Source of the DNA: Zoogloea sp.
GTDB taxonomy: Bacteria > Pseudomonadota > Gammaproteobacteria > Burkholderiales > Rhodocyclaceae
Assembly (NCBI RefSeq): GCF_028689785.1
Contig: NZ_JAQVCN010000050.1
Coordinates: 1-34,600, forward strand
Reading direction: 5' to 3'
Length of the DNA stretch: 34,600 nt
The position numbers and the translations under genes are program-made. Shown here piece by piece: positions 19,434 through 29,737 of the stretch (position 1 is the stretch's first letter; each line of letters opens with the position of its first letter). The notes beneath the pieces are model-generated. The model saw only the letters and a list, made by a program, of their open reading frames with translations. It ran no database searches and had not been told where the DNA came from.

Positions 19434-19609
19434 TCAATGCTCCGCGCCCTCATCGTCGCGTAACACCGTTTCGTAGTCCTGCCCACCGTAAAAGATCCCG
19501 ATGATGGAGACCACCTCGGAATTCACATCGAAGGCGATGACCGTGCGCTTCCTGTAGTCCTGCTTTCCCCAGCTTGAAGTCACCTGCCACCTTGGGCTCC
19601 CTGGCCTTT
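19434..19609 (-). pseudogene. ParE/RelE-type toxin, C-terminal remnant
   Basis: The minus-strand frame ends with YRKRTVIAFDVNS, then VSIIGIFYGGQDYETVL and a stop at 19434. IxGIFYGGQDYE with a preceding RKRVxIAF strand is characteristic of ParE-type toxins of type II toxin-antitoxin systems. Only about 45 residues resemble the family; a full toxin has about 95-100. Upstream the frame runs directly into a 92-bp palindromic element at 19610-19701, so the 5' half of the toxin gene has been lost. No antitoxin gene is visible. Confidence 0.6.
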
Positions 19610-19701
19610 CCCGTGGGGTCGAATTTATTCGACCGCGGACCCGGATTAAAGGCATGCCGATGGCTTGGGCGACTGAGGTCGAATAAATTCGACCCCACGG
19701 G
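19610..19701. repeat. 92-bp paired-palindrome element, copy A
   Basis: Two 25-bp arms (19610-19634 and 19677-19701) are exact reverse complements, flanking a 42-bp middle. Each arm contains GGTCGAATTTATTCGACC or its complement, itself nearly palindromic, next to GTGGG. The middle shares GGAC, GGCATGCCGAT and GGCGACTGA with copy B. The element separates toxin debris from LysR debris. It looks like a REP/BIME- or MITE-like sequence without coding capacity. Confidence 0.85.
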
Positions 19702-19845
19702 TGCTCCAGCCACCGTTGGTACATCCGGAACGCCCTGTTCGCTTCACTCAACCATAGAGCCGCTCGCCGTCTTTGCAGTCCAGTTTTCCGCTCACACGCA
19801 AGGCTATCTCACTCGCCCAATCCGGCGCTTCTTGGCTGGTTAAAT
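19702..19845 (-). pseudogene. Fragment of a LysR-type regulator gene
   Basis: The minus strand reads EIALRVSGKLDCKDGERLYG, against VALRVSGNLDCNDGELLYD of the intact LysR gene at 21320-22222. At DNA level 19756-19806 matches 21541-21591 at about 43 of 51 positions by eye, in the same orientation. The fragment comes from the ligand domain, is stopped by TGA just after the match and has no start or helix-turn-helix part. It abuts the palindromic element, suggesting that a second LysR gene once stood here and was eroded. Confidence 0.6.
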
Positions 19846-19849
19846 GCGT

Positions 19850-20200
19850 TTGTCTGCTTCAATGTCGGTGCTAGGTCTTTCGGCGGCGGCGGGCCCCCGG
19901 TGTGCATACACTGAAGCGCCACCACCTTCCGCCTTCCCATGCACCAGAGAGTTTCATTGTCATGAATGAATACGTGACGATTAATTCCATTTGCATTAAT
20001 CTATCTCACTTCAGGATCAGCGGAAGGTAGCTGTCGTCCTCGCGCAAGGCAGATTCAACAGAGGGGCAACAGGGGAAGAAACGCCTGAAGGGCAGACAAC
20101 GCCGTGACGCACGGCACCGAAAACGCCTGTTATCACACGCCCTGTGGTGACTTTGCTGCCCTGATAAATTCGGCACTCTATTACTTTCAAGGAAACTCAC
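19850..20200. other. Non-coding, lower-GC spacer
   Basis: No convincing gene on either strand. The stretch is visibly less GC-rich than the flanks and marks the left part of a region of foreign character. An AT-rich segment near 19965-20010 (ATTAATTCCATTTGCATTAA) could hold a promoter for the next gene, but I see no clear -35/-10 pair. Confidence 0.5.
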
Positions 20201-20201
20201 G

Positions 20202-20528
20202 ATGATAGTGTGGCAAGGAGCAGGTCTTGCTGGCGTATTGATTCCCCTTGTTTTTTCTTTTCTCGGAAACTATGGCCTGGACAAAGCCTTTGGTGATGGC
20301 TACTACTCCTCACATGCTTGGGCACCAGCGTCAATGCTGCTCGCAGCAGCCTTGGTCGTTTGGTTATTCGGAAAGCACCTTGAGAGCATTCCTGGCAGGG
20401 AACTCATGGATCTACAGACTCAACAGAAGGTGGTACTGAAAGAGAAGCACACCATCTTTTGGATGCCACTGCACTATTTCGCAGTTGCCCTTGCCGGTTT
20501 CGCGATCGTCATACCGTTCATCAGATGA
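20202..20528 (+). CDS. Hypothetical membrane protein, 108 residues
   Basis: ATG 20202 follows AAGGAAACTCACG, a good ribosome site. Three hydrophobic segments are visible: residues about 5-22 (GAGLAGVLIPLVFSFLGN), 40-56 (PASMLLAAALVVWLFGK) and 88-107 (HYFAVALAGFAIVIPFI). A soluble segment (ESIPGRELMDLQTQQKVVLK) lies between the last two. I do not recognise a characterised family. Codon use is less GC-biased than in neighbours, suggesting transfer. Confidence 0.65.
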   Translation: MIVWQGAGLAGVLIPLVFSFLGNYGLDKAFGDGYYSSHAWAPASMLLAAALVVWLFGKHLESIPGRELMDLQTQQKVVLKEKHTIFWMPLHYFAVALAGFAIVIPFIR

Positions 20529-20624
20529 AAGCCTTCCTCACGACACACTTCCAGTTTGCCCACCCCTCAATCCGTAAATCTACCGAATCTGCACCAGAAG
20601 CCTCACCGGCCCGCGAACTCGGAC

Positions 20625-20666
20625 TTTTGGGTGTTGCTTGTTCTGCCCAACCTGCAACACCCAAAA
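20625..20666. repeat. 13-bp perfect inverted repeat
   Basis: TTTTGGGTGTTGC at 20625-20637 and its exact reverse complement at 20654-20666, with a 16-nt loop. The T-run is on the 5' side and the A-run on the 3' side, so it is not a normal terminator for either strand. It lies just before or across the start of the following gene and could hide its ribosome site in a hairpin. Confidence 0.6.
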
Positions 20667-21291
20667 CCATGCAACGGATGTCCGGATCATCGGCAGTTCA
20701 AACAACACCCAACAATCCGCCAGCCTTCCCCAATTGATGGGCTCCATATTCCGCCGCCTGCTGGGAACACTCACCGCTCTACATCGCACTCCTGAAGCCC
20801 GCGCTCAGGACAAGGACACGCCTGCACGACATGCGGGCAGAGCGCTAAGGGCGAGATTTCTTTCCTTAGAAGCCCAATCGCTAGGAATCGAGCCAAGCTC
20901 GGAGTACCCACGGGTCTTTGGTGCCGCAATGGACTGGCCTGTCGGTGAGCACATTGCAACGTTGGTCGCCTTGCTCGATGGCACAGCGAGTCTTTATACG
21001 ACGTCAACATTCGGCATTATTGGCGGTGCCGGGCATGCATCGGTAAAAAATGCAGCCCAACGGTTTGTCAAAGCCTTCAACGAGCTCTTACCGGAGACGG
21101 TAGCAACAACCACACACCCATACCCTGACAAAGAGCGGGTTTGCTTTTTTCTTCTCACCTTTGATGGACTTCGTACGGTTGAAACAGAAATTGCCCCCAT
21201 CTACTCAGGATCGGGGAAGTTCGCTCCCCTGTTTGGCGACGGCCAGGCAGTCATTACCGAGCTTCGCAAAATGACGGAAGCTCGGTCGTGA
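20638..21291 (+). CDS. Hypothetical protein with possible N-terminal zinc ribbon
   Basis: Up to 217 residues from a TTG at 20638; ATG 20737 would give 184 residues. The longer form starts FCPTCNTQN, half of a zinc-ribbon-like pair, but no second CxxC follows, so this may be chance. The C-terminal part looks like a folded domain: YPRVFGAAMDWPVGEHIATL, LLDGTASLYTTSTFGIIGGA, then CFFLLTFDGLRTVETE. The pattern recalls uncharacterised bacterial proteins, but I cannot name a family or function. It is 109 bp after the membrane protein gene and shares its lower-GC character, so the two may have arrived together. Confidence 0.6.
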   Translation: MFCPTCNTQNHATDVRIIGSSNNTQQSASLPQLMGSIFRRLLGTLTALHRTPEARAQDKDTPARHAGRALRARFLSLEAQSLGIEPSSEYPRVFGAAMDWPVGEHIATLVALLDGTASLYTTSTFGIIGGAGHASVKNAAQRFVKAFNELLPETVATTTHPYPDKERVCFFLLTFDGLRTVETEIAPIYSGSGKFAPLFGDGQAVITELRKMTEARS

Positions 21292-21319
21292 TCCGTACTT
21301 CAGATCTGCATGCCGCCCT

Positions 21320-22222
21320 CTACCCCCAATACCCCTCCCCCCGATAAATCCCCCTCAAATAATCCATGAAATGCCGCACCTTCGCCGGCAGGTAGCGTTG
21401 CTGGGGGTACACCGCCTGGATGTCGTAGGCGCTGAGGGCGAAGTCATCCAGCACGGTCACGAGCTCGCCGCGTTTGAGTTCGCCTTCGATCTCCCAGGTG
21501 GAGCGCCAGCCGATGCCGAGGCCTTGTTTGACCCAGTCGTAGAGCAGCTCGCCGTCGTTGCAGTCCAGGTTGCCGCTGACGCGCAGGGCGACGGGTTTGC
21601 CGTCCTTGCGGAAGGACCAGCCGCGTTGCTGGCCGCCCTGGAGGTTGAAGGCCAGGCAGTTGTGGTCGGCCAGGTCTTCCAGGCTGCGGGGGGTGCCGTG
21701 GCGGGCGAAGTAGGCGGGGGTGCCGCAGACCACGCGACGGTTGGGGTAGAGGCGCACGGCCACGTAGTTGGGGTCGGTGACTTCGCCGATGCGGATGCCC
21801 ATGTCGTAGCCTTCGCGCACCAGGTCCACCACGCTGTCGGTGAGGTTGAAGGACAGCTTGATGTCCGGGTGCAGGGCCTGGAAGCCGGGGCCGTGGGGGG
21901 CGACGTGGCGGCGGCCGAAGGCGGCGGGGGCGGACACCACCAGGTGCCCGCGCACGGTGTGGCGGCCGGCGCTGATGCTGGCGTCCACCTCGTCAAAGTC
22001 GCGTAGCAGCTGGCGCGCCTGCTCCAGGTATTGCTCACCCAGGTCGGTGAGGTGCAGGCCGCGGGTGGAGCGGTGCATCAGGCGCACACCGAGACGGGCT
22101 TCCAGGGCGTCGAGGCGGCGCCCCATGACCACCGGGGTGACCTGCTCGACCAGGGCGGCGGCGGCGAAGCTGCCCTTTTCGGCCACCAGGACAAAGCTGC
22201 GCAGTTCGGTGTAGCGGTCCAT
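21320..22222 (-). CDS. LysR-family transcriptional regulator
   Basis: 300 residues. The N-terminal helix-turn-helix is clear (ELRSFVLVAEKGSFAAAALV, then VVMGRRLDALEARLGVRLMH and RSTRGLHLTDLGEQYLEQAR). The rest is a type 2 periplasmic-binding-like ligand domain (HLVVSAPAAFGRRHVAP, DYDMGIRIGE-like segment, SGNLDCNDGELLYDWVKQGL). It resembles the CrgA-like branch. It lies at the downstream end of the glyoxylate gene run on the same strand, 80 bp after the broken pyk, and may regulate those genes or itself; there is no divergent partner. A fragment of a related gene lies 1.5 kb away. Confidence 0.9.
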   Translation of the reverse strand: MDRYTELRSFVLVAEKGSFAAAALVEQVTPVVMGRRLDALEARLGVRLMHRSTRGLHLTDLGEQYLEQARQLLRDFDEVDASISAGRHTVRGHLVVSAPAAFGRRHVAPHGPGFQALHPDIKLSFNLTDSVVDLVREGYDMGIRIGEVTDPNYVAVRLYPNRRVVCGTPAYFARHGTPRSLEDLADHNCLAFNLQGGQQRGWSFRKDGKPVALRVSGNLDCNDGELLYDWVKQGLGIGWRSTWEIEGELKRGELVTVLDDFALSAYDIQAVYPQQRYLPAKVRHFMDYLRGIYRGEGYWG

Positions 22223-22302
22223 GGTGAGGGTTCCTTTGTCGGTGTGGGGACGAGATGAGGGGGGCTGTTTCGTGCTCTGACTTTTGGTGCCTTTGCTCTA
22301 CC

Positions 22303-23624
22303 CTACAAAGCCCCCGGCACCTGCGCCACATGCAACAGGTTGGTGCTGCCTTGCTGGCCGAAGGGCAGGCCGGCGACGACGACGACGGTGTCACCGGGTC
22401 TGGCCACGCCGGCCTGGCGGGCGGCGGCGGTGGCGTGGGTGATCATCTCGCCCACGTCATGCACTTCGTTAAAGGGCACGGGCACCACGCCCCAGGCCAG
22501 GGCCAGGCGGCGGGCGCCAGCAGCTCGGCCACGCGGCGCAGGGCGCAGCAGATGGCGTCCGGGGTGTTGGCCTCGGCGGGGGTGTGGCTGGCCTCCAGCC
22601 CGGCACGCCAGGCGGGGTCGCGCTCCACCTCGCCGATGATGTGGTCCATGATGCTCACCGCCTCCACCGGGTACTGGCCCGAGGCTGACTCGGCCGACAG
22701 CATCACCGCATCGGCGCCCTCGTACACCGCGGTGGCCACGTCGGAAGCTTCGGCCCGGGTGGGCACGGGGGCGGTGATCATGGATTCGAGCATCTGGGTG
22801 GCCACCACCACCGGGCGGCCGGCCTTGCGGGCGGCGCGCACGATGCGCCGCTGCAGCACCGGCACCTGCTGGGGCGGCAGTTCGACGCCCAGGTCGCCGC
22901 GGGCCACCATCACCCCGTCGGCCAGGGCCACGATGGCGTCCAGGTGCTCGATGGCAGCCGGCTTTTCCAGCTTGGCCATGATCCAGGCCTGGTCGCCGAT
23001 CAGCTCGCGGGCCTCGCGGATGTCCTCGGGGCGCTGCACGAAGGACAGGGCCACCCAATCCACGCCCAGTTCCAGGCCAAAGGCCAGGTCGGCCCTGTCC
23101 TTGGCGGTGAGGGGCGAGATGGGCAGCAGCACGCCGGGCACATTGACGCCCTTGCGATCCGACAAAGGGCCGCCCACCAGCACGGTGGTCTCGGCGAAGT
23201 CAGCGCCGAAGTGCTCCACCCGCAGACGCAGCTTGCCGTCGTCGAGGAGCAGCTCGGTGCCGGCTTCCAGGGCGGCGAAGATCTCCGGGTGGGGCAGGCT
23301 AGCGCGGGTGGAATCACCCTCGGCGCTGCCCAGGTCGAGGCGGAAGGCCTGGCCGGCTTCGAGCAGCACCTTGCCGCCGGCCATGCGCCCGACCCGCAGC
23401 TTGGGGCCCTGCAGGTCCATCAGCACGCCGATGGGGCGGCCCAGCTCGGCCTCCACCTGGCGGATCTGCTGGTAGCGCTCGGCGTGGTCGGCGTGGGCAC
23501 CGTGGCTGAAGTTGAGGCGGAACACGTCGGCGCCGGCCTGGGCCAGCTCGCGGATGCGTTCGAGGGTGGAGCTGGCCGGCCCGAGGGTGGCCAGGATGCG
23601 GGAGCGGCGGGCGCGATGCATCAT
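22303..23624 (-). pseudogene. pyk: Pyruvate kinase gene with out-of-frame internal deletion
   Basis: From ATG 23624 (overlapping the GlcG-like stop by ATGA) about 366 residues read as normal pyruvate kinase: KLxxTLGPAS-like RILATLGPASSTLERIRELA, RLNFSHGAHADH, the catalytic-Lys region AKLEKPAAIEHLDAI, and MVARGDLGVELP and QMLESMI. After AICCALRRVAELL the frame moves into junk and stops at 22443. The expected end continues in another frame as ARRLALAWGVVPVPFNEVHD to GQQGSTNLLHVAQVPGAL, stopping at 22303. About 33 residues that normally link these two parts, at the start of the C-terminal domain, are missing. So a deletion of roughly 100 bp, not a multiple of three, removed them near 22523. Active-site residues remain, but the C-terminal domain cannot form. 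A sequence error is possible. Confidence 0.85.
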
Positions 23625-24043
23625 GCCACCTGCCTTTCCATGCCCCGCGCCAGGGCGGCCACGCCGGCCCGGGCCACCTGGGCGTCCTCGCCGGCCTTGA
23701 CGCCGGAGACCCCCACCGCACCGATCACCAGCCCGTCGACCGTGATGGGCTCGCCACCTTCCAGGGGCACCACCGGCATGGCCAGGGCGGCGATGCGGCC
23801 GTTGTTGACCATGTCCTCGAAAGCCTTGCTGGGCTTGCCCGAGAGCACGCAGGTGCGGGCCTTCTCGGGGGCCACGGCGGCGCTCATCAGGGGGGCGCCG
23901 TCCATGCGCTGCAGCCACAGGGGGTGGCCGCCGGCGTCGCACACGGCGATGCTCACCGCCCAGCCGCAAGCCCGGGCCTCGGACTCGGCCGCCGCGGCGA
24001 TGTGTTTGACGTCGTCCAGGGTCAGGGCCTGGGTGGGTTTCAT
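23621..24043 (-). CDS. GlcG/HbpS-like protein (DUF336)
   Basis: 140 residues. The sequence fits the GlcG/HbpS family (PF03928): LTLDDVKHIAAAAESEARAC, then VSIAVCDAGGHPLWLQRMDG, EKARTCVLSGKPS and PITVDGLVIGAVGVSG near the end. Members are small alpha/beta proteins found beside glycolate and glyoxylate genes and in some cases bind heme; a role in glyoxylate metabolism is unproven. It lies between ttuD (41 bp upstream) and pyk (overlapping), so it belongs to the operon. No signal peptide is seen. Confidence 0.85.
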   Translation of the reverse strand: MKPTQALTLDDVKHIAAAAESEARACGWAVSIAVCDAGGHPLWLQRMDGAPLMSAAVAPEKARTCVLSGKPSKAFEDMVNNGRIAALAMPVVPLEGGEPITVDGLVIGAVGVSGVKAGEDAQVARAGVAALARGMERQVA

Positions 24044-24084
24044 GTCTGTCTCCTTTTTCTAGGTATGTATGTGTGTGGGGTGGG

Positions 24085-25350
24085 TCAGGTGATCAGGATG
24101 GCCCGGAAGTCGTTGACGTTGGTGAGCGTGGGCCCGGTGATGAGGCTGTCGCCCAGGGCCTCGAAAAAGCCGTGGCCGTCGTTGTTGTCGAGGCTGTCGC
24201 GGGGGCGGATGCCCTTCGCCCAGGCACGGGACAGGGTGTCGGGAGTGGCCAGGGCGCCGGCGATCTCCTCCAGGCCGTCCACCCCGTCGGTGTCGCCGGC
24301 CACGGCGTGGATGCCGGCGGCGCCGTCGAGGGCCACCGTCAGGGACAGCAGGAACTCCACGTTGCGCCCGCCACGGCCCTTGCCGCGCACGGTGACGGTG
24401 GTTTCACCACCAGAGAGCAGCACGCAGGGCGCCGCCACCGGCTGGCCGTGGCGCTTGACCTGCAGGGCGATGGCGGCCATCACCTTGCCCACGTCGCGGG
24501 CCTCGCCCTCGATGCTGTCGCCCAGCAGCACGGGGGTGATGCCGGCGGCCCGGGCCACCTCGGCGGCGGCCTCCAGGGCCATCTGGGGGGTAGCGATCAG
24601 GTGGGTGAGCACCCCGGCGAGGCGCGGGTCGCCGGGCTTCACCGTCTCGCCGCGGCCGCTCTCCAGCAGGGCCCGGGCGCCGGCCGGCAGGTCGATGGCG
24701 TAGCGGCGCACGATGGCCAGGGCGTCGGCGCAGGTGGTGGGGTCGGCCACGGTGGGGCCGGAGGCGATGTCCATGGGGTTGTCGCCGGGCACGTCGGAGA
24801 TCAGCAGATTGACCACCCGGGCCGGGTGGCAGGCCGCCGCCAGGCGCCCACCCTTGATGGCGGAGAGGTGGCGGCGCACGCAGTTCATCTCCGAGATGGT
24901 GGCGCCGGACTTGAGCAGGGCCCGGTTGATGGCCTGCTTGTCCTCCAGGCTGACGCCCTCGCCGGGCAGGGGCAGCAGGGCCGAGCCACCGCCGGAGATC
25001 AGGCAGATGACCAGATCATCGGGGCCGAGGCCCTGCACCAGAGCCAGCATGCGCGCGGCGGCTTCGCGGCCGGCGGCGTCGGGCACCGGGTGGGCAGCCT
25101 CGACGATCTCGATGCGCTCGCAGGGCACGGCGTAACCGTAACGGGTGACGACCAGGCCTGACAGCTCACCCGGCCAGTGCAGCTCCAGCGTCCGGGCCAT
25201 GGCCGCCGAGGCCTTGCCGGCCCCGATCACCAGGGTGCGGCCCTTGGGCGGCGCCGGCAGGAAACGGGGGATGCAGTGCTCCGGCTGGGCGGCATTCACC
25301 GCCGCGGCGAAGAGGGCCTGGAGCAGATCGCGGGGAGAAGCGTGGGTCAT
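24085..25350 (-). CDS. ttuD: Glycerate kinase / hydroxypyruvate reductase, TtuD type (MOFRL family)
   Basis: 421 residues from ATG 25350 with an AGGA ribosome site; the open frame extends upstream only through palindromic repeats. Motifs of the glycerate 2-kinase/TtuD family are present: GAGKASAAMARTLE, PDDLVICLISGGGSALLPLP, KQAINRALLKSGATISEMN, LISDVPGDNPMDIASGPTV, and the C-terminal MOFRL part GGETTVTVRGKGRGGRNVEF and AGDTDGVDG. Members of this family were annotated as hydroxypyruvate reductase (TtuD) but many are glycerate 2-kinases; here either would connect tartronate semialdehyde/glycerate to 2-phosphoglycerate. Separated by 176 bp of repeats from the DUF3830 gene. Confidence 0.9.
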   Translation of the reverse strand: MTHASPRDLLQALFAAAVNAAQPEHCIPRFLPAPPKGRTLVIGAGKASAAMARTLELHWPGELSGLVVTRYGYAVPCERIEIVEAAHPVPDAAGREAAARMLALVQGLGPDDLVICLISGGGSALLPLPGEGVSLEDKQAINRALLKSGATISEMNCVRRHLSAIKGGRLAAACHPARVVNLLISDVPGDNPMDIASGPTVADPTTCADALAIVRRYAIDLPAGARALLESGRGETVKPGDPRLAGVLTHLIATPQMALEAAAEVARAAGITPVLLGDSIEGEARDVGKVMAAIALQVKRHGQPVAAPCVLLSGGETTVTVRGKGRGGRNVEFLLSLTVALDGAAGIHAVAGDTDGVDGLEEIAGALATPDTLSRAWAKGIRPRDSLDNNDGHGFFEALGDSLITGPTLTNVNDFRAILIT

Positions 25351-25376
25351 GGTCGGTCCTGTTGATGGAGGGAGGA

Positions 25377-25512
25377 GGTCGAATGAATTCGACCCCACGG
25401 GTTGGCTGCACCGGTTGGCCTGGGCTGTGGGGTCGAATTCATTCGACCGCGGACTTGGCTCACCGGCTTGCCGATATTGCAGGCGACTGAGGTCGAATGA
25501 ATTCGACCCCAC
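25377..25512. repeat. Palindromic element cluster, copy B (three palindromes)
   Basis: Three copies of GGTCGAATGAATTCGACC or its complement. A single arm (25377-25401) with CCCCACGGG on its right is followed after 25 bp by a pair (25427-25448 and 25491-25512) around a 42-bp middle that matches copy A. The outermost bases of the pair are degenerate. The cluster fills the gap between ttuD and the DUF3830 gene and may form strong hairpins in the operon mRNA. Confidence 0.85.
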
Positions 25513-25526
25513 AACAAGCTGCGCTT

Positions 25527-25949
25527 TCAGCGCTTGCCCAGGTCGGTGAAGCGCACCCACTGGGCGCCCTTCCACAGCACTTCGCGGCCCATGTCCATGA
25601 GCTGCTCGGTGCCTTCTACCACGGTCAGGAAGTGATTGCCCGCCAGTTGCCCCATCTTGCTGGCAAAGCGGCTGCTACCGTAGGCAAACAGGATCTCCGT
25701 TTCGGAAAAGCCCCCCGGGTAGAGCAGCACGTCGCCCCGGGAGGGGTGGCTGGTATGGTTCTCGAAGTCCAGGCCGGTGTCGAAGTCGGCCAGCGGCACC
25801 CACACCGCCTCGCCGCTCCAGCGGGAATGGATGACCTGATTGGAGAAGGGCAACATCTTCAGGAAGGCGGCGCAGGTCTTCGGCGCGGCCTCTTCCTCCA
25901 GGCGGGCGACGAAGCGCCGGGAGCCCACTTCGATGGCGAGATGGCGCAT
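25527..25949 (-). CDS. DUF3830 family protein, cyclophilin-like fold
   Basis: 140 residues. The sequence matches DUF3830 as I know it: EVGSRRFVARLEEEAAPKTC, AAFLKMLPFSNQVIHSRWSG, GDVLLYPGGFSETEILFAYG, then FASKMGQLAGNHFLTVVEG. The family has a cyclophilin-like barrel and no assigned reaction. It lies 11 bp after glxR, so it is translated with the glyoxylate pathway enzymes and may act on a pathway intermediate or stabilise an enzyme; that is inference from position only. Confidence 0.8.
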   Translation of the reverse strand: MRHLAIEVGSRRFVARLEEEAAPKTCAAFLKMLPFSNQVIHSRWSGEAVWVPLADFDTGLDFENHTSHPSRGDVLLYPGGFSETEILFAYGSSRFASKMGQLAGNHFLTVVEGTEQLMDMGREVLWKGAQWVRFTDLGKR

Positions 25950-25960
25950 GGTGATTTCCC

Positions 25961-26854
25961 TCAGGCGGCCTGCTGGCCGATCTCGAAGTTGGCCATCTTC
26001 TCCAGGGCGCGCACCAGGGCCGAGTGGTCCCAGCCTGCGCCGCCGTGGGCCGCGCAGGCGTTGAACAGCTCCTGGGCGGTGGCGGTGTTGGGCAGGGGCA
26101 CCCCCAGCTGGCGGCCGGTGGTGAGGGCCAGGTTGAGGTCCTTCTGGTGCAGCTCGATGCGGAAGCCCGGGTCGAAGGTCCGCTTGACCATGCGCTCGCC
26201 GTGCACCTCGAGGATGCGGGAGTTGGCAAAGCCGCCCATCAGGGCCTCGCGCACCCTGGCCGGGTCGGCGCCGGCCTTGGCGGCCAGCAGCAGGGCTTCG
26301 CCCACGGCCTCGATGGTCAGGGCCACGATGATCTGGTTGGCCACCTTGGTGATCTGGCCGTCGCCATTGCCGCCCACCCGGGTGATGTTCTTGCCCATCA
26401 GCTCGAACAGGGGCCGGACCTTGGCGAAGGCGGCCTCGCTGCCCCCCACCATGATGGTCAGGCTGGCAGCCCTGGCACCCACCTCGCCGCCAGACACCGG
26501 GGCGTCCAGGTAGTCACAGCCGAGGGCCTTGATGCGGCGGGCGAAGTTCTTGGTGGCCACCGGGGAGATGGAGCTCATGTCCACCACGATCTTGCCCGGC
26601 ACCAGGCCGGCGGCGACGCCTTCGGGGTTGAACAGGGCGTCTTCCACGTGGGGGGTGTCGGGCACCATGGTGATGATGATGTCGGCCTGACGGGCCACTT
26701 CGGCGCCGCTGGTGCAGGGGCGGGCGCCGGCCTCGATCAGGGCGGCCGGGGTGGCGCCGTGGGTGTGGGTGTAAACCGTGTGGCCGGCGGCGATGAGGTG
26801 GCCGGCCATGGGGGCGCCCATGATGCCGAGGCCAATGAATCCGATGTGTGCCAT
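25961..26854 (-). CDS. glxR: Tartronate semialdehyde reductase (2-hydroxy-3-oxopropionate reductase)
   Basis: 297 residues of the beta-hydroxyacid dehydrogenase family. The Rossmann motif GFIGLGIMGAPMAGHL is at residues 5-20, the substrate-binding DAPVSGG at 118-124 and the catalytic Lys at K170 (GQITKVANQIIVAL). It reduces tartronate semialdehyde to D-glycerate with NAD(P)H. GNGDGQ and QKDLNLAL are also typical of GlxR/GarR. It sits between hyi (48 bp) and the DUF3830 gene, as expected for the glyoxylate carboligase pathway. Confidence 0.94.
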   Translation of the reverse strand: MAHIGFIGLGIMGAPMAGHLIAAGHTVYTHTHGATPAALIEAGARPCTSGAEVARQADIIITMVPDTPHVEDALFNPEGVAAGLVPGKIVVDMSSISPVATKNFARRIKALGCDYLDAPVSGGEVGARAASLTIMVGGSEAAFAKVRPLFELMGKNITRVGGNGDGQITKVANQIIVALTIEAVGEALLLAAKAGADPARVREALMGGFANSRILEVHGERMVKRTFDPGFRIELHQKDLNLALTTGRQLGVPLPNTATAQELFNACAAHGGAGWDHSALVRALEKMANFEIGQQAA

Positions 26855-26902
26855 GGTGGTGTCTCCTGTTTTGTCGTTATGGGGCGTCGGGGTGGGGGTG
26901 CG

Positions 26903-27676
26903 TCAGAACGCGTCGAGCCAGCCCAGGCCCTCGGCGGCGGTGGTGGCGGGCTTGTATTCGCAGCCGACCCAGCCGGTATAGCCCAGGCCGTCGATGTGGC
27001 GCAGCAGCCAGGGGTAGTTGATCTCGCCGCTGCCGGGCTCGTGGCGGCCGGGGTTGTCGGCCAGCTGGATGTGGGCGATGCGCGGCAGGTGGCGGGCCAC
27101 GGTGGCGGCCAGCTCGCCCTCCATGCGCTGGGCGTGGTAGAGGTCGTACTGGATGAAGAGGTTGTCGGCGCCCACCTCGTCCAGGATGTCCGCCGCCTGG
27201 GCGGTGCGGCTGAGATAGAAGCCGGGGATGTCGAAGGTGTTGATGGGCTCGATGAGCAGGCGGATGCCCGCCTCCTGGAGCTGGCCGGCGGCATAGCGCA
27301 GGTTGCTCAACAGGGTGTAGCGCAGCAGCTCGGGGCTGACGCCCGCGGGCGCAATGCCGGCCAGACAGTTGATCTGGGTGCAGCCCAGGGCAGTGGCGTA
27401 CTCGATGGCCCGCCCCACCCCGTGGCGAAACTCGGCGACCCGGTCGGGGTGGCAGGCGATGCCCCGCTCGCCACCCTCCCAGTTGCCGGCGGGCAGGTTG
27501 TGCAGCACCTGGACGAGGCGGTGGCGCTCCAGCTGTTCGGCCAGCTCATCCTTGTTGAAGGCGTAGGGGAAGAGGTATTCCACGCCCTGAAACCCGGCCC
27601 GGGCCGCGGCACCGAAGCGCTCCAGGAAGGGCAGCTCGGTGAACAGCATGGACAGGTTGGCGGCAAATCTCGGCAT
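26903..27676 (-). CDS. hyi: Hydroxypyruvate isomerase
   Basis: 257 residues from ATG 27676; E. coli Hyi has 258. The frame extends upstream through a palindromic repeat, which is not part of the protein. The TIM-barrel AP-endonuclease-2-like fold is recognisable: MPRFAANLSMLFTELPFLER, GFQGVEYLFPY, LLIEPINTFDIPGFYL with the metal/catalytic Glu, FIQYDLYHAQRMEG, and GCEYKP near the C-terminus. It interconverts hydroxypyruvate and tartronate semialdehyde. Between gcl and glxR in the usual pathway order. Confidence 0.93.
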   Translation of the reverse strand: MPRFAANLSMLFTELPFLERFGAAARAGFQGVEYLFPYAFNKDELAEQLERHRLVQVLHNLPAGNWEGGERGIACHPDRVAEFRHGVGRAIEYATALGCTQINCLAGIAPAGVSPELLRYTLLSNLRYAAGQLQEAGIRLLIEPINTFDIPGFYLSRTAQAADILDEVGADNLFIQYDLYHAQRMEGELAATVARHLPRIAHIQLADNPGRHEPGSGEINYPWLLRHIDGLGYTGWVGCEYKPATTAAEGLGWLDAF

Positions 27677-27699
27677 GATTCGGTCTCCGTAAGGCGGGA

Positions 27700-27724
27700 G
27701 GTCGAACGGATTCGACCCCACGGG
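27700..27724. repeat. Single arm of the palindromic element, copy C
   Basis: GGTCGAACGGATTCGACC followed by CCACGGG in the 61-bp gap between gcl and hyi. It matches one 25-bp arm of the 92-bp element apart from the central bases. Only one arm is present. Confidence 0.8.
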
Positions 27725-27737
27725 GATAAAGGGCGGC

Positions 27738-29513
27738 TCAGTCCAGCAGGGCGATGGCGGTGGGTGCATCGGCGCCGCTCTCGGCGAGGGCCTCGAACTC
27801 GTTCACCGCGTTGATCTCGGTGCCCATGGAGATGTTGGTGACCCGTTCGAGGATGATCTCGACCACCACCGGCACGCGGAACGCCTCCATCCATGCGCGG
27901 GCCTGGGCAAAGGCCGGCTGGATGTCTTCGGCCTGGCGCACGCGGATGGCCTTGCAGCCCAGGCCTTCGACCACCGCGACGTGATCGACGCCATAGCCCT
28001 CGGTTTCGGGGGCGTTGATGTTCTCGAAGGCCAGCTGCACGCAGTAGTCCATGTCGAAGCCGCGCTGGGACTGGCGGATCAGGCCCAGGTAGGCGTTGTT
28101 CACCACCACGTGGATGTAGGGCAGCCTGAACTGGGCGCCCACGGCCAGCTCTTCGATCATGAACTGGAAGTCGTAGTCGCCGGAGACCGCCACCACCTTG
28201 CGCTGGGGGTCGGCCGCGCACACGCCGAGGGCCGCCGGGATGGTCCAGCCGAGGGGGCCGGCCTGGCCGCAGTTGATCCAGTGGCGGGGCTTGTACACGT
28301 GCAGGAACTGGGCGGCGGCGATCTGCGACAGGCCGATGGTGCTGACGTAGCAGGTGTCAGGGCCGAAGGCCTTGTTCATCTCTTCGTACACGCGCTGGGG
28401 CTTCATCGGCGTGGCGTCGAAGTGGGTCTTGCGCAGCAGGGTGCGCTTGCGTTCCTGGCAGTCGGCCACCCAGGCCTTGCGGCAGGGCAGCTGGCCGGCC
28501 GCCTTCAAGTCGCGGGCGACGGCGATCAGCTGGTCGAGGGCTGCGCCGGCGTCGGAGACGATCCCGTAGTCCGGCCCAAAGACACGGCCGATCTGGGTCG
28601 GCTCGATGTCGATATGCACGAACTTGCGGCCCTCGGTGTACACATCCACCGAGCCGGTGTGGCGGTTGGCCCAACGGTTGCCGATGCCGATCACGAAGTC
28701 GGAGGCCAGCATGGTCGCGTTGCCATAGCGGTGGGCGGTCTGCAGGCCGACCATGCCGGCCATCAGCGGGTGGTCGTCGGGGAGGCTGCCCCAGCCCATC
28801 AGGGTGGGGATCACCGGCACACCGGTCAACTCGGCAAACGCCTGCAGACGGGCCGCCGCGTCGGCGTTGATCACCCCGCCGCCGGCCACGATCAGCGGGC
28901 GCTCGGCGGCGTTGAGCATGGCCAGGGCCTTCTCGGCCTGGGCCCGGGTGGCGGCCGGCTTGTGCAGGGGCAGCGGCTCGTAGGTGTCAATGTCGAACTC
29001 GATCTCGGCCATCTGCACGTCGAAGGGCAGGTCGATCAGCACCGGGCCGGGCCGGCCGGAGCGCATGATGTGGAAGGCCTGCTGGAAGACCCGCGGCACC
29101 AGGGCCGCCTCGCGCACGGTGACGGCCCACTTGGTCACCGGCTTGGCGATGGACTCGATGTCCACCGCTTGGAAGTCCTCCTTGTAGAGGCGGGCGCGAG
29201 GGGCCTGGCCGGTGATGCACAGGATGGGGATGGAATCCGCCGAGGCGGAATACAGGCCGGTGATCATGTCGGTACCGGCCGGGCCGGAGGTGCCGATGCA
29301 CACCCCCAGGTTGCCGGCTTTGGCCCGGGTGAAGCCCTCGGCCATGTGCGAGGCGCCTTCCACGTGGCGGGCGAGGAAGTGCTTGATGCCGCCCTCCTTC
29401 CGCATCGCCGAGTAGAGGGGGTTGATCGCCGCGCCCGGCACGCCGAACACCGTCCCCACGCCTTCCTTGCGCATCACCGCCACTGCGGCATCCACTGCTC
29501 TCATTCGGGCCAT
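27738..29513 (-). CDS. gcl: Glyoxylate carboligase (tartronate semialdehyde synthase)
   Basis: 591 residues from ATG 29513 (AAGGAG ribosome site eight bases upstream); E. coli Gcl has 593. A ThDP enzyme that joins two glyoxylates to tartronate semialdehyde and CO2. The N-terminus shows [15 protein letters not shown] and [16 protein letters not shown]. Residue 51 is Val, as in E. coli Gcl, which lacks the Glu that other ThDP enzymes use. The ThDP-binding block is [19 protein letters not shown] with [20 protein letters not shown]. The [20 protein letters not shown] segment is also characteristic of Gcl. First gene of the glyoxylate gene run. Confidence 0.97.
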
Positions 29514-29645
29514 GTGTGTCTCCTTGTAGGTCTGTCCGATGGATTGATGGGGACAGCTTAGGGATTCGGGGATCCCGTTTGAATTGCCGGCGGGATCGGT
29601 TCTTTCGGTACTTTTGGTATGGAGTGGATGGAGTGAGCACACCTC

Positions 29646-29737
29646 CCCGTGGGGTCGAATTCATTCGACCTCCGCCCGTCAGATCATCGGCCTGCCTTTG
29701 ATCGAAGTCCTAGGTCGAATGAATTCGACCCCACGGG
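29646..29737. repeat. 92-bp paired-palindrome element, copy D
   Basis: Two 25-bp arms (29646-29670 and 29713-29737) are exact reverse complements around a 42-bp middle. Read on the minus strand, the middle matches copy A at 27 of 42 positions by eye, including GGAC, AAAGGCA and GCCGATG. So this copy is inverted relative to A and B. It ends 9 bp from the stop codon of the UreI/AmiS-type gene, between that gene and gcl. Confidence 0.85.

Follow-up and report, generated by a model that had tools for sequence, protein, structure and literature searches.

Palindromic repeats in the glyoxylate cluster

We analyzed a 34,600-nt stretch of contig NZ_JAQVCN010000050.1 (assembly GCF_028689785.1), hereafter the window, from the activated-sludge bacterium Zoogloea sp., in which a palindromic element recurs through a minus-strand cluster of glyoxylate genes. 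The cluster holds an AmiS/UreI-like gene, a DUF3830 gene and the genes for glyoxylate carboligase, hydroxypyruvate isomerase, 2-hydroxy-3-oxopropionate reductase and glycerate 2-kinase. A preliminary description of the window had placed the element at four sites, all of which we confirmed (19610-19701; 25377-25398 plus 25427-25512; 27700-27721; 29646-29737). Its unit has the form of a doublet of repetitive extragenic palindromes (REPs) forming hairpins (REPIN), that is, two inverted REP hairpins around a spacer of usually 41–43 nt. The 18-bp palindrome of the arms matches the window eight times at up to three mismatches, where 0.08 matches are expected, and none of 100 shuffles reached eight.

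Copy A (19613..19698, plus strand) consists of a GTGG-tagged arm at 19613-19634, a 42-nt spacer and an inverted arm at 19677-19698. A single arm at 25377..25398 on the minus strand, whose tag closes it on the right as CCAC (minus-strand GTGG), precedes copy B (25427..25512, plus strand, 42-nt spacer), and a decayed solo arm lies at 27700..27721 on the minus strand. Copy D (29649..29734, minus strand) is inverted, as had been described, and its 42-nt spacer has the reverse orientation to those of A and B; the copy at 29.6 kb is 82% identical to the inverse of the one at 19.6 kb. Copies B and D lie in gaps of the cluster, as do the lone arms, with REPs on both sides of the glyoxylate carboligase open reading frame (ORF; 27738..29642, minus strand). 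Since the profile match begins only at residue 113 of the mechanically called glycerate 2-kinase-like ORF (24085..25575, minus strand), the true start of this gene probably lies beyond the REPs at 25.4 kb. Similarly, the match begins at residue 33 of the hydroxypyruvate isomerase ORF (26903..27769, minus strand), so the 27.7-kb REP is probably located before that gene. Translation of the element yields the recurring peptides VGSNSFD and SNEFDPT, in line with the earlier observation, and the repeats account for such recurring peptides, and for places where gene calls may be interrupted, in the genus.

A dispersed population of tagged hairpin pairs

Each arm is built from a GTGG tag and an 8-bp stem (GGTCGAAT/ATTCGACC) closed by a 2-nt TC or TT loop; with GTGG in the window copies, they are not CGTC-tagged REPs. 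What had been called a 92-bp element is a genuine paired-palindrome unit of which only 86 bp, running from GTGGGG to CCCCAC, are constant, the outer CCC/GGG being variable. When folded as single-stranded DNA, a single-arm hairpin reaches -6.4 kcal/mol and the whole REPIN -31.0 kcal/mol, and for each of the four sequences folded, none of 200 shuffles folds as well.

The element extends far beyond the locus. In the draft genome (5.08 Mb in 128 contigs, 98.84% complete) the tagged arm has 178 strand-matches (91 + 87) at up to two mismatches, palindromes tagged on both sides being counted twice, compared to 0 for a reversed-pattern control, and 25 inverted pairs fit a tighter pattern that leaves a single base free on each side of the stem. 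Of the 22 other genomes examined in the genus, 10 carry the arm, which also turns up in distant bacteria. The four sites within ∼10 kb could have arisen by local duplication within the glyoxylate locus, which the preliminary description had considered the better explanation if the element were absent elsewhere in the genome and from relatives; this dispersal leaves local duplication no probability.

Detailed counts were made in 534,456 bases of this genome chosen around matches, not as a random sample, in which 130 palindromes scored at up to three mismatches. The tag is GTGG in 120 of these 130 arms, which were found by a pattern that includes the tag, and GTAG or GTGG in sister classes. The loop on the tagged strand is TC or TT in 118 of 130, with GA and AA as its complement, and the variable central bases that had been remarked on in the arms are merely this loop. 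Among 43 inverted pairs the spacer measures 41 nt (13 pairs), 42 nt (12), 43 nt (12), 39 nt (1), 44 nt (1), 23 nt (2) or 24 nt (2); a middle of exactly 42 bp, as first claimed, holds only within the window, the spacer being 39–44 nt in 39 of these 43 pairs and 23–24 nt in four. Inverted doublets with tags outside are the main unit, accounting for 43 of 52 neighbouring pairs (tags inside in 6, head-to-tail in 3), and 36 of the 130 arms have no other arm within 150 bp. Fifteen palindromes are tagged on both sides at up to two mismatches, and these may be REPIN pairs that collapsed between their palindromic arms. Double-tagged palindromes of 26 bp lie at G000:C5:124638-124663, C25:45432-45457 and C38:92549-92574.

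Counting arms in intergenic against coding DNA, as had been proposed, placed 118 of 130 outside ORFs called by a home-made codon-usage caller, though 80.3% of bases are in ORFs; four of the 12 arms inside ORFs are window arms, probably in over-long ORF starts. Both neighbouring genes were called for 107 intergenic arms, of which 79 fall between tandem, 24 between convergent and 4 between divergent genes, compared to 1085, 395 and 255 of 1735 random intergenic bases, and divergent gaps are thus under-used (4/107 versus 255/1735, Fisher p = 0.0005). By these gene calls the population has the many copies, mainly extragenic and few in divergent gaps, of the GTAG superfamily of REPs, and the same placement has been published for REPs in the part of PMC3733652 consulted. 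The placement and the stable folding are also what speaks for an alternative in which the repeats are selected regulatory hairpins (terminators, mRNA stabilisers or host-protein binding sites) and not mobile DNA, to which we return with the comparison of relatives.

The ends of the element bear on how it moved. REPs are mobilised by REP-associated tyrosine transposases (RAYTs), also called TnpA_REP, which are HUH/Y1 single-strand transposases. A miniature inverted-repeat transposable element (MITE), the other family type named in the preliminary description, would instead owe its spread to a classical (DDE) transposase that recognises the 22-bp terminal inverted repeats, and the inverted termini, small size and dispersal fit such an element. 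However, none of the 43 REPINs has a target-site duplication at any length from 2 to 9 nt, a result that excludes only a general duplication, since shuffled flanks give 0–0.17 duplications. Solo arms occur, each arm forms a hairpin by itself and is tagged on one side, and sister elements flank RAYT genes (see below), all of which make a MITE barely credible.

The flanks have a feature expected of a RAYT substrate. In vitro, TnpA_REP cleaves at CT, in one case at CA too, and at CC with a GTGG tag (PMC8266576, in part). A candidate cleavage dinucleotide directly 5′ of the tag is present in 66 of 87 GTGG arms of our genome (CC 51, CT 15), and we infer that our element was cut there. We also tried a guide code, after the Marinomonas TnpA_REP (same source, in part), in which GTGG goes with CC and GTAG with CT. 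Pooled data looked supportive (p = 0.008 in one comparison, p = 0.0002 in another), but the code was rejected because within the three testable genome/class sets the Mantel-Haenszel odds ratio is 0.31, in the opposite direction. The dinucleotide tracks the population: the CC 51:CT 15 of our genome compares with CC 4:CT 64 for the GTGG arms of the gammaproteobacterial metagenome-assembled genome (MAG) 8_bin.35. Intergenic alignments with relatives are too gappy to fix exact insertion boundaries.

Sister classes, relatives and the transposase

Within the 534,456 bases, the 96 perfect GTRG-8-TY-8 hairpins are all accounted for by five related stems, GGTCGAAT (80), GGGCGACT (11), GGGCGGCT (3), AGGCGACT (1) and GGGCGAAT (1), and eight other loop dinucleotides gave only five hairpins, four of them GGTCGAAT. 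With a class list derived from perfect stems, and across the loci compared, the 3′ half complements its own 5′ half in 260/305 cases for GGTCGAAT, 65/73 for GGGCGAAT, 35/42 for GGGCGACT, 44/46 for GTCGGACT, 8/9 for GGGCGGCT, 7/7 for GTCAGAAT, 2/3 for GGGCGATT and 2/2 for GGGCGAAC, but in only 8/15 for GGCCGAAT. Since the 3′ halves mostly complement the 5′ half of their own class, REP classes differ from one another by paired changes. Inside our population, departures from the stem look like decay: of 48 such palindromes 38 are changed on one side, nine on two sides without restored pairing, and one by a paired change that makes a sister-class stem. Compensatory change within the class was accordingly rejected, this being the only one of 130 palindromes changed at paired positions. 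The suggestion that the stem is selected more than the sequence therefore holds between classes and fails within this population.

We compared the occupancy of orthologous gaps in relatives, in alignments that are gappy at sites B, C and D. Among seven alignable relatives, site B is empty in three (L280, L281, L284), carries an GGGCGAAT arm in L279 and a diverged arm in L277, and holds other DNA in two. Site C carries a GTAG-GGGCGGCT hairpin in 3 of 6 relatives, and site D an GGGCGGCT pair in one of five (L277), with a shorter spacer that has GGACTTCGATCAA in common with ours. Because occupancy differs between relatives in this way, intergenic sites appear to be reused by different REP classes. 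Gaps that are empty or filled by another class, departures that do not preserve the stem, and copy numbers of a single class that vary greatly between genomes of one genus all run against regulatory hairpins as the primary explanation, which we consider very unlikely; later co-option of some arms may have occurred and is compatible with a mobile origin.

The arm also occurs exactly in distant bacteria, which among the matches listed include 8_bin.35, Haliea, Rhodoferax, Oceanisphaera, Litorirhabdus and a Rhodopirellula MAG; viral contigs gave 0 exact matches. In 8_bin.35 there are 118 GGTCGAAT arms in the 45 loci examined. A Haliea MAG (L254 1247-1462) carries a tandem array of six arms, five exact and one near copy, with a 38–39-bp period, adjoining a RAYT that the end of the contig truncates to its C-terminal part. 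This fragment is closest to the RAYT of G021 (61% of 69 residues; four others compared, 45–51%), and the REP of that RAYT is a single stem pair away from ours. At E up to 0.001, the profile for REP-associated tyrosine transposases matches the 11.3-Mb Rhodopirellula MAG (G126) 29 times.

Within the genus, sister REP hairpins flank 5 of the 15 RAYT-like loci examined, and all five pass the NF047646 cut-off. The flanking stems are GGGCGACT in G012 and G018, GGGCGAAT in G021 and GTCGGACT in G017 and G003, to which a Rhodoferax MAG adds GTCAGAAT. GGGCGACT reaches 164 copies in G018, 74 in G012 and 161 in G022, where the RAYT lies in two frames, and GGGCGAAT reaches 618 in G021. In G018 and G021 the RAYT stands directly downstream of a gene for a metallo-β-lactamase (MBL)-fold protein with Beta-Casp and RMMBL domains; in our genome no RAYT follows the corresponding MBL-fold gene (C15:2053-3459), and a REPIN (C15:3499-3585) lies 39 bases beyond it, as does an GGGCGACT REPIN downstream of the MBL-fold gene in G010, at a distance of its own. 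The two-frame homologue of G022 (G022:C111:4956-5479) is likewise beside an MBL-fold gene, its genome having 161 strand-matches to GGGCGACT REPs. G004 and G009, in assemblies 80–89% complete, show 13 and 24 strand-matches to GGGCGACT REPs, with insignificant RAYT matches (E 0.22 and 0.36), so that REPs lacking a RAYT could be widespread in the genus. A cognate RAYT in G005 was considered and rejected: its Y1 genes lie ∼1.3–1.7 kb from a one-mismatch arm, fall below the NF047646 cut-off and resemble another subgroup.

Taken with the tag, the hairpin, the 2-nt TY loop, the inverted pairs and the mostly intergenic spread, these flanking sister REPs support assignment to the REP and bacterial interspersed mosaic element (BIME) type, as first proposed. 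We consider it very probable that the repeats are REPINs of GTAG-superfamily REPs with a GTGG tag, non-autonomous and spread through the genome by a RAYT, which would since have been lost or would lie in an assembly gap. On this account the RAYT would have recognised the tagged hairpin in single-stranded form, cleaved at the pyrimidine dinucleotide adjoining the tag and inserted copies at other places in the genome. After its loss from the lineage (if it does not sit in a gap) the population would now be decaying, and solo arms and the 26-bp double-tagged palindromes would be remnants or collapsed pairs.

Several observations weigh against this account. The transposase that had been predicted elsewhere in the genome, and the RAYT flanked by the same arms that was to be sought, were not found in the draft with PF01797, NF047646 or a five-RAYT profile (E up to 10; 48 candidates scored), so the mover is not in hand, even though relatives do have RAYTs and the Haliea fragment lies beside five exact arms; in a 128-contig draft, a RAYT within a repeat-rich assembly gap is possible. 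At ten of the 15 RAYT-like loci examined in the genus, hairpins of this kind are missing from the flanks. Copy number is high with such a RAYT but not only there: GGGCGACT has 112 copies in G014, where the RAYT-like genes are not accompanied by these arms. It has 55 in G010, and GGGCGAAT has 112 in G015, two genomes in which the five-RAYT profile finds no match. RNAalifold predicts a long cross-arm hairpin, which we rejected as the selected form since, between the two arms, the loop bases (CG 23, UG 6, CA 5, UA 3) show no significant covariation (Fisher p = 0.37). Finally, no transposition event was observed.

Arms, spacers and published REP systems

Many spacers of our genome are related to one another, in either sense. 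Spacers of 27 long GGGCGACT REPINs sampled from G018 resemble ours (mean best local score 22.5 versus 10.0 for shuffles, highest shuffle 15), whereas those of 51 pairs in 8_bin.35, which have the same arm as ours, are unrelated (10.4 versus 10.3 for shuffles). Short spacers in G015, G018 and G021 barely exceed shuffles (10.4–11.1 versus 8.3–8.9), and the GTCGGACT spacers of G003 and G017 do not score above them. Because G018 shares the spacer with a different arm and 8_bin.35 shares the arm with an unrelated spacer, arm and long spacer appear to be inherited apart, at least between these genomes. With more doubt than conviction, we raise the idea that they are separate modules: the arm stem would follow the RAYT and could pass to another class when both arms change in concert and keep their base pairing (from GTAG-GGGCGACT to GTGG-GGTCGAAT), and the 42-nt spacer would stay with the host lineage. 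If so, the ‘orthoswitch’ of REP classes would be an in-place arm conversion and not a whole-element replacement, and re-arming could let a REPIN population outlive its RAYT.

Comparison with published systems, in the parts of each source covered, places the family among ordinary REPINs. Those of Pseudomonas fluorescens SBW25 (PMC3116915) are likewise extragenic inverted REP doublets with a spacer, with singlets more diverged than doublets, and are RAYT-linked; the Zoogloea element differs in its stem, its GTGG tag, its perfect 8-bp stem with a 2-nt loop, and in having no RAYT found. GTAG-tagged REP families 1-24 (PMC3733652) share the tetranucleotide tag, including a reported GTGG variant, stems of 6–13 bp, many TY loops and HH dimers with conserved spacers; the GGTCGAAT stem was not met in that part of the text, a comparison made without its consensus figure. 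The Thioalkalivibrio REP GTAGGTCGGCCTTCAGGCCGAC and the Haemophilus influenzae REP GTAGGGTGGGCTTcAGCCCACC, listed with RAYTs in PMC2817692, have the same GTAG tag, 8-bp stem and 2-nt TC/TT loop and differ from ours in stem sequence. In pseudomonads, REPs are ‘quite often’ abundant without a cognate RAYT, related REP classes occur in one genome, and the orthoswitch has been described with its mechanism left open (PMC3686654). A search of open-licence PubMed Central, judged by its listings, returned no paper on Zoogloea REPs or this palindrome.

The family is thus a new, apparently orphan REPIN family, ordinary in kind; RAYT-less REPs are already known. Less usual is that REPINs of one relative carry the same spacer as ours between different arms, and in the main text of PMC3686654 the words spacer and inter-REP do not occur. 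With several REP classes, RAYTs that are present, broken or missing, and one shared spacer, the comparative set lets a REP class switch be traced.

Two further features lie beside copy A. A 105-codon ORF (19434-19751, minus strand) reads through this REPIN; it has no Pfam match, and we take its C-terminal half to resemble a RelE/ParE-type toxin. A 62-bp direct repeat (19743-19804 and 21528-21589, 81% identical) has its second unit within a LysR-type regulator ORF, and the repeat appears to be a gene fragment beside copy A.

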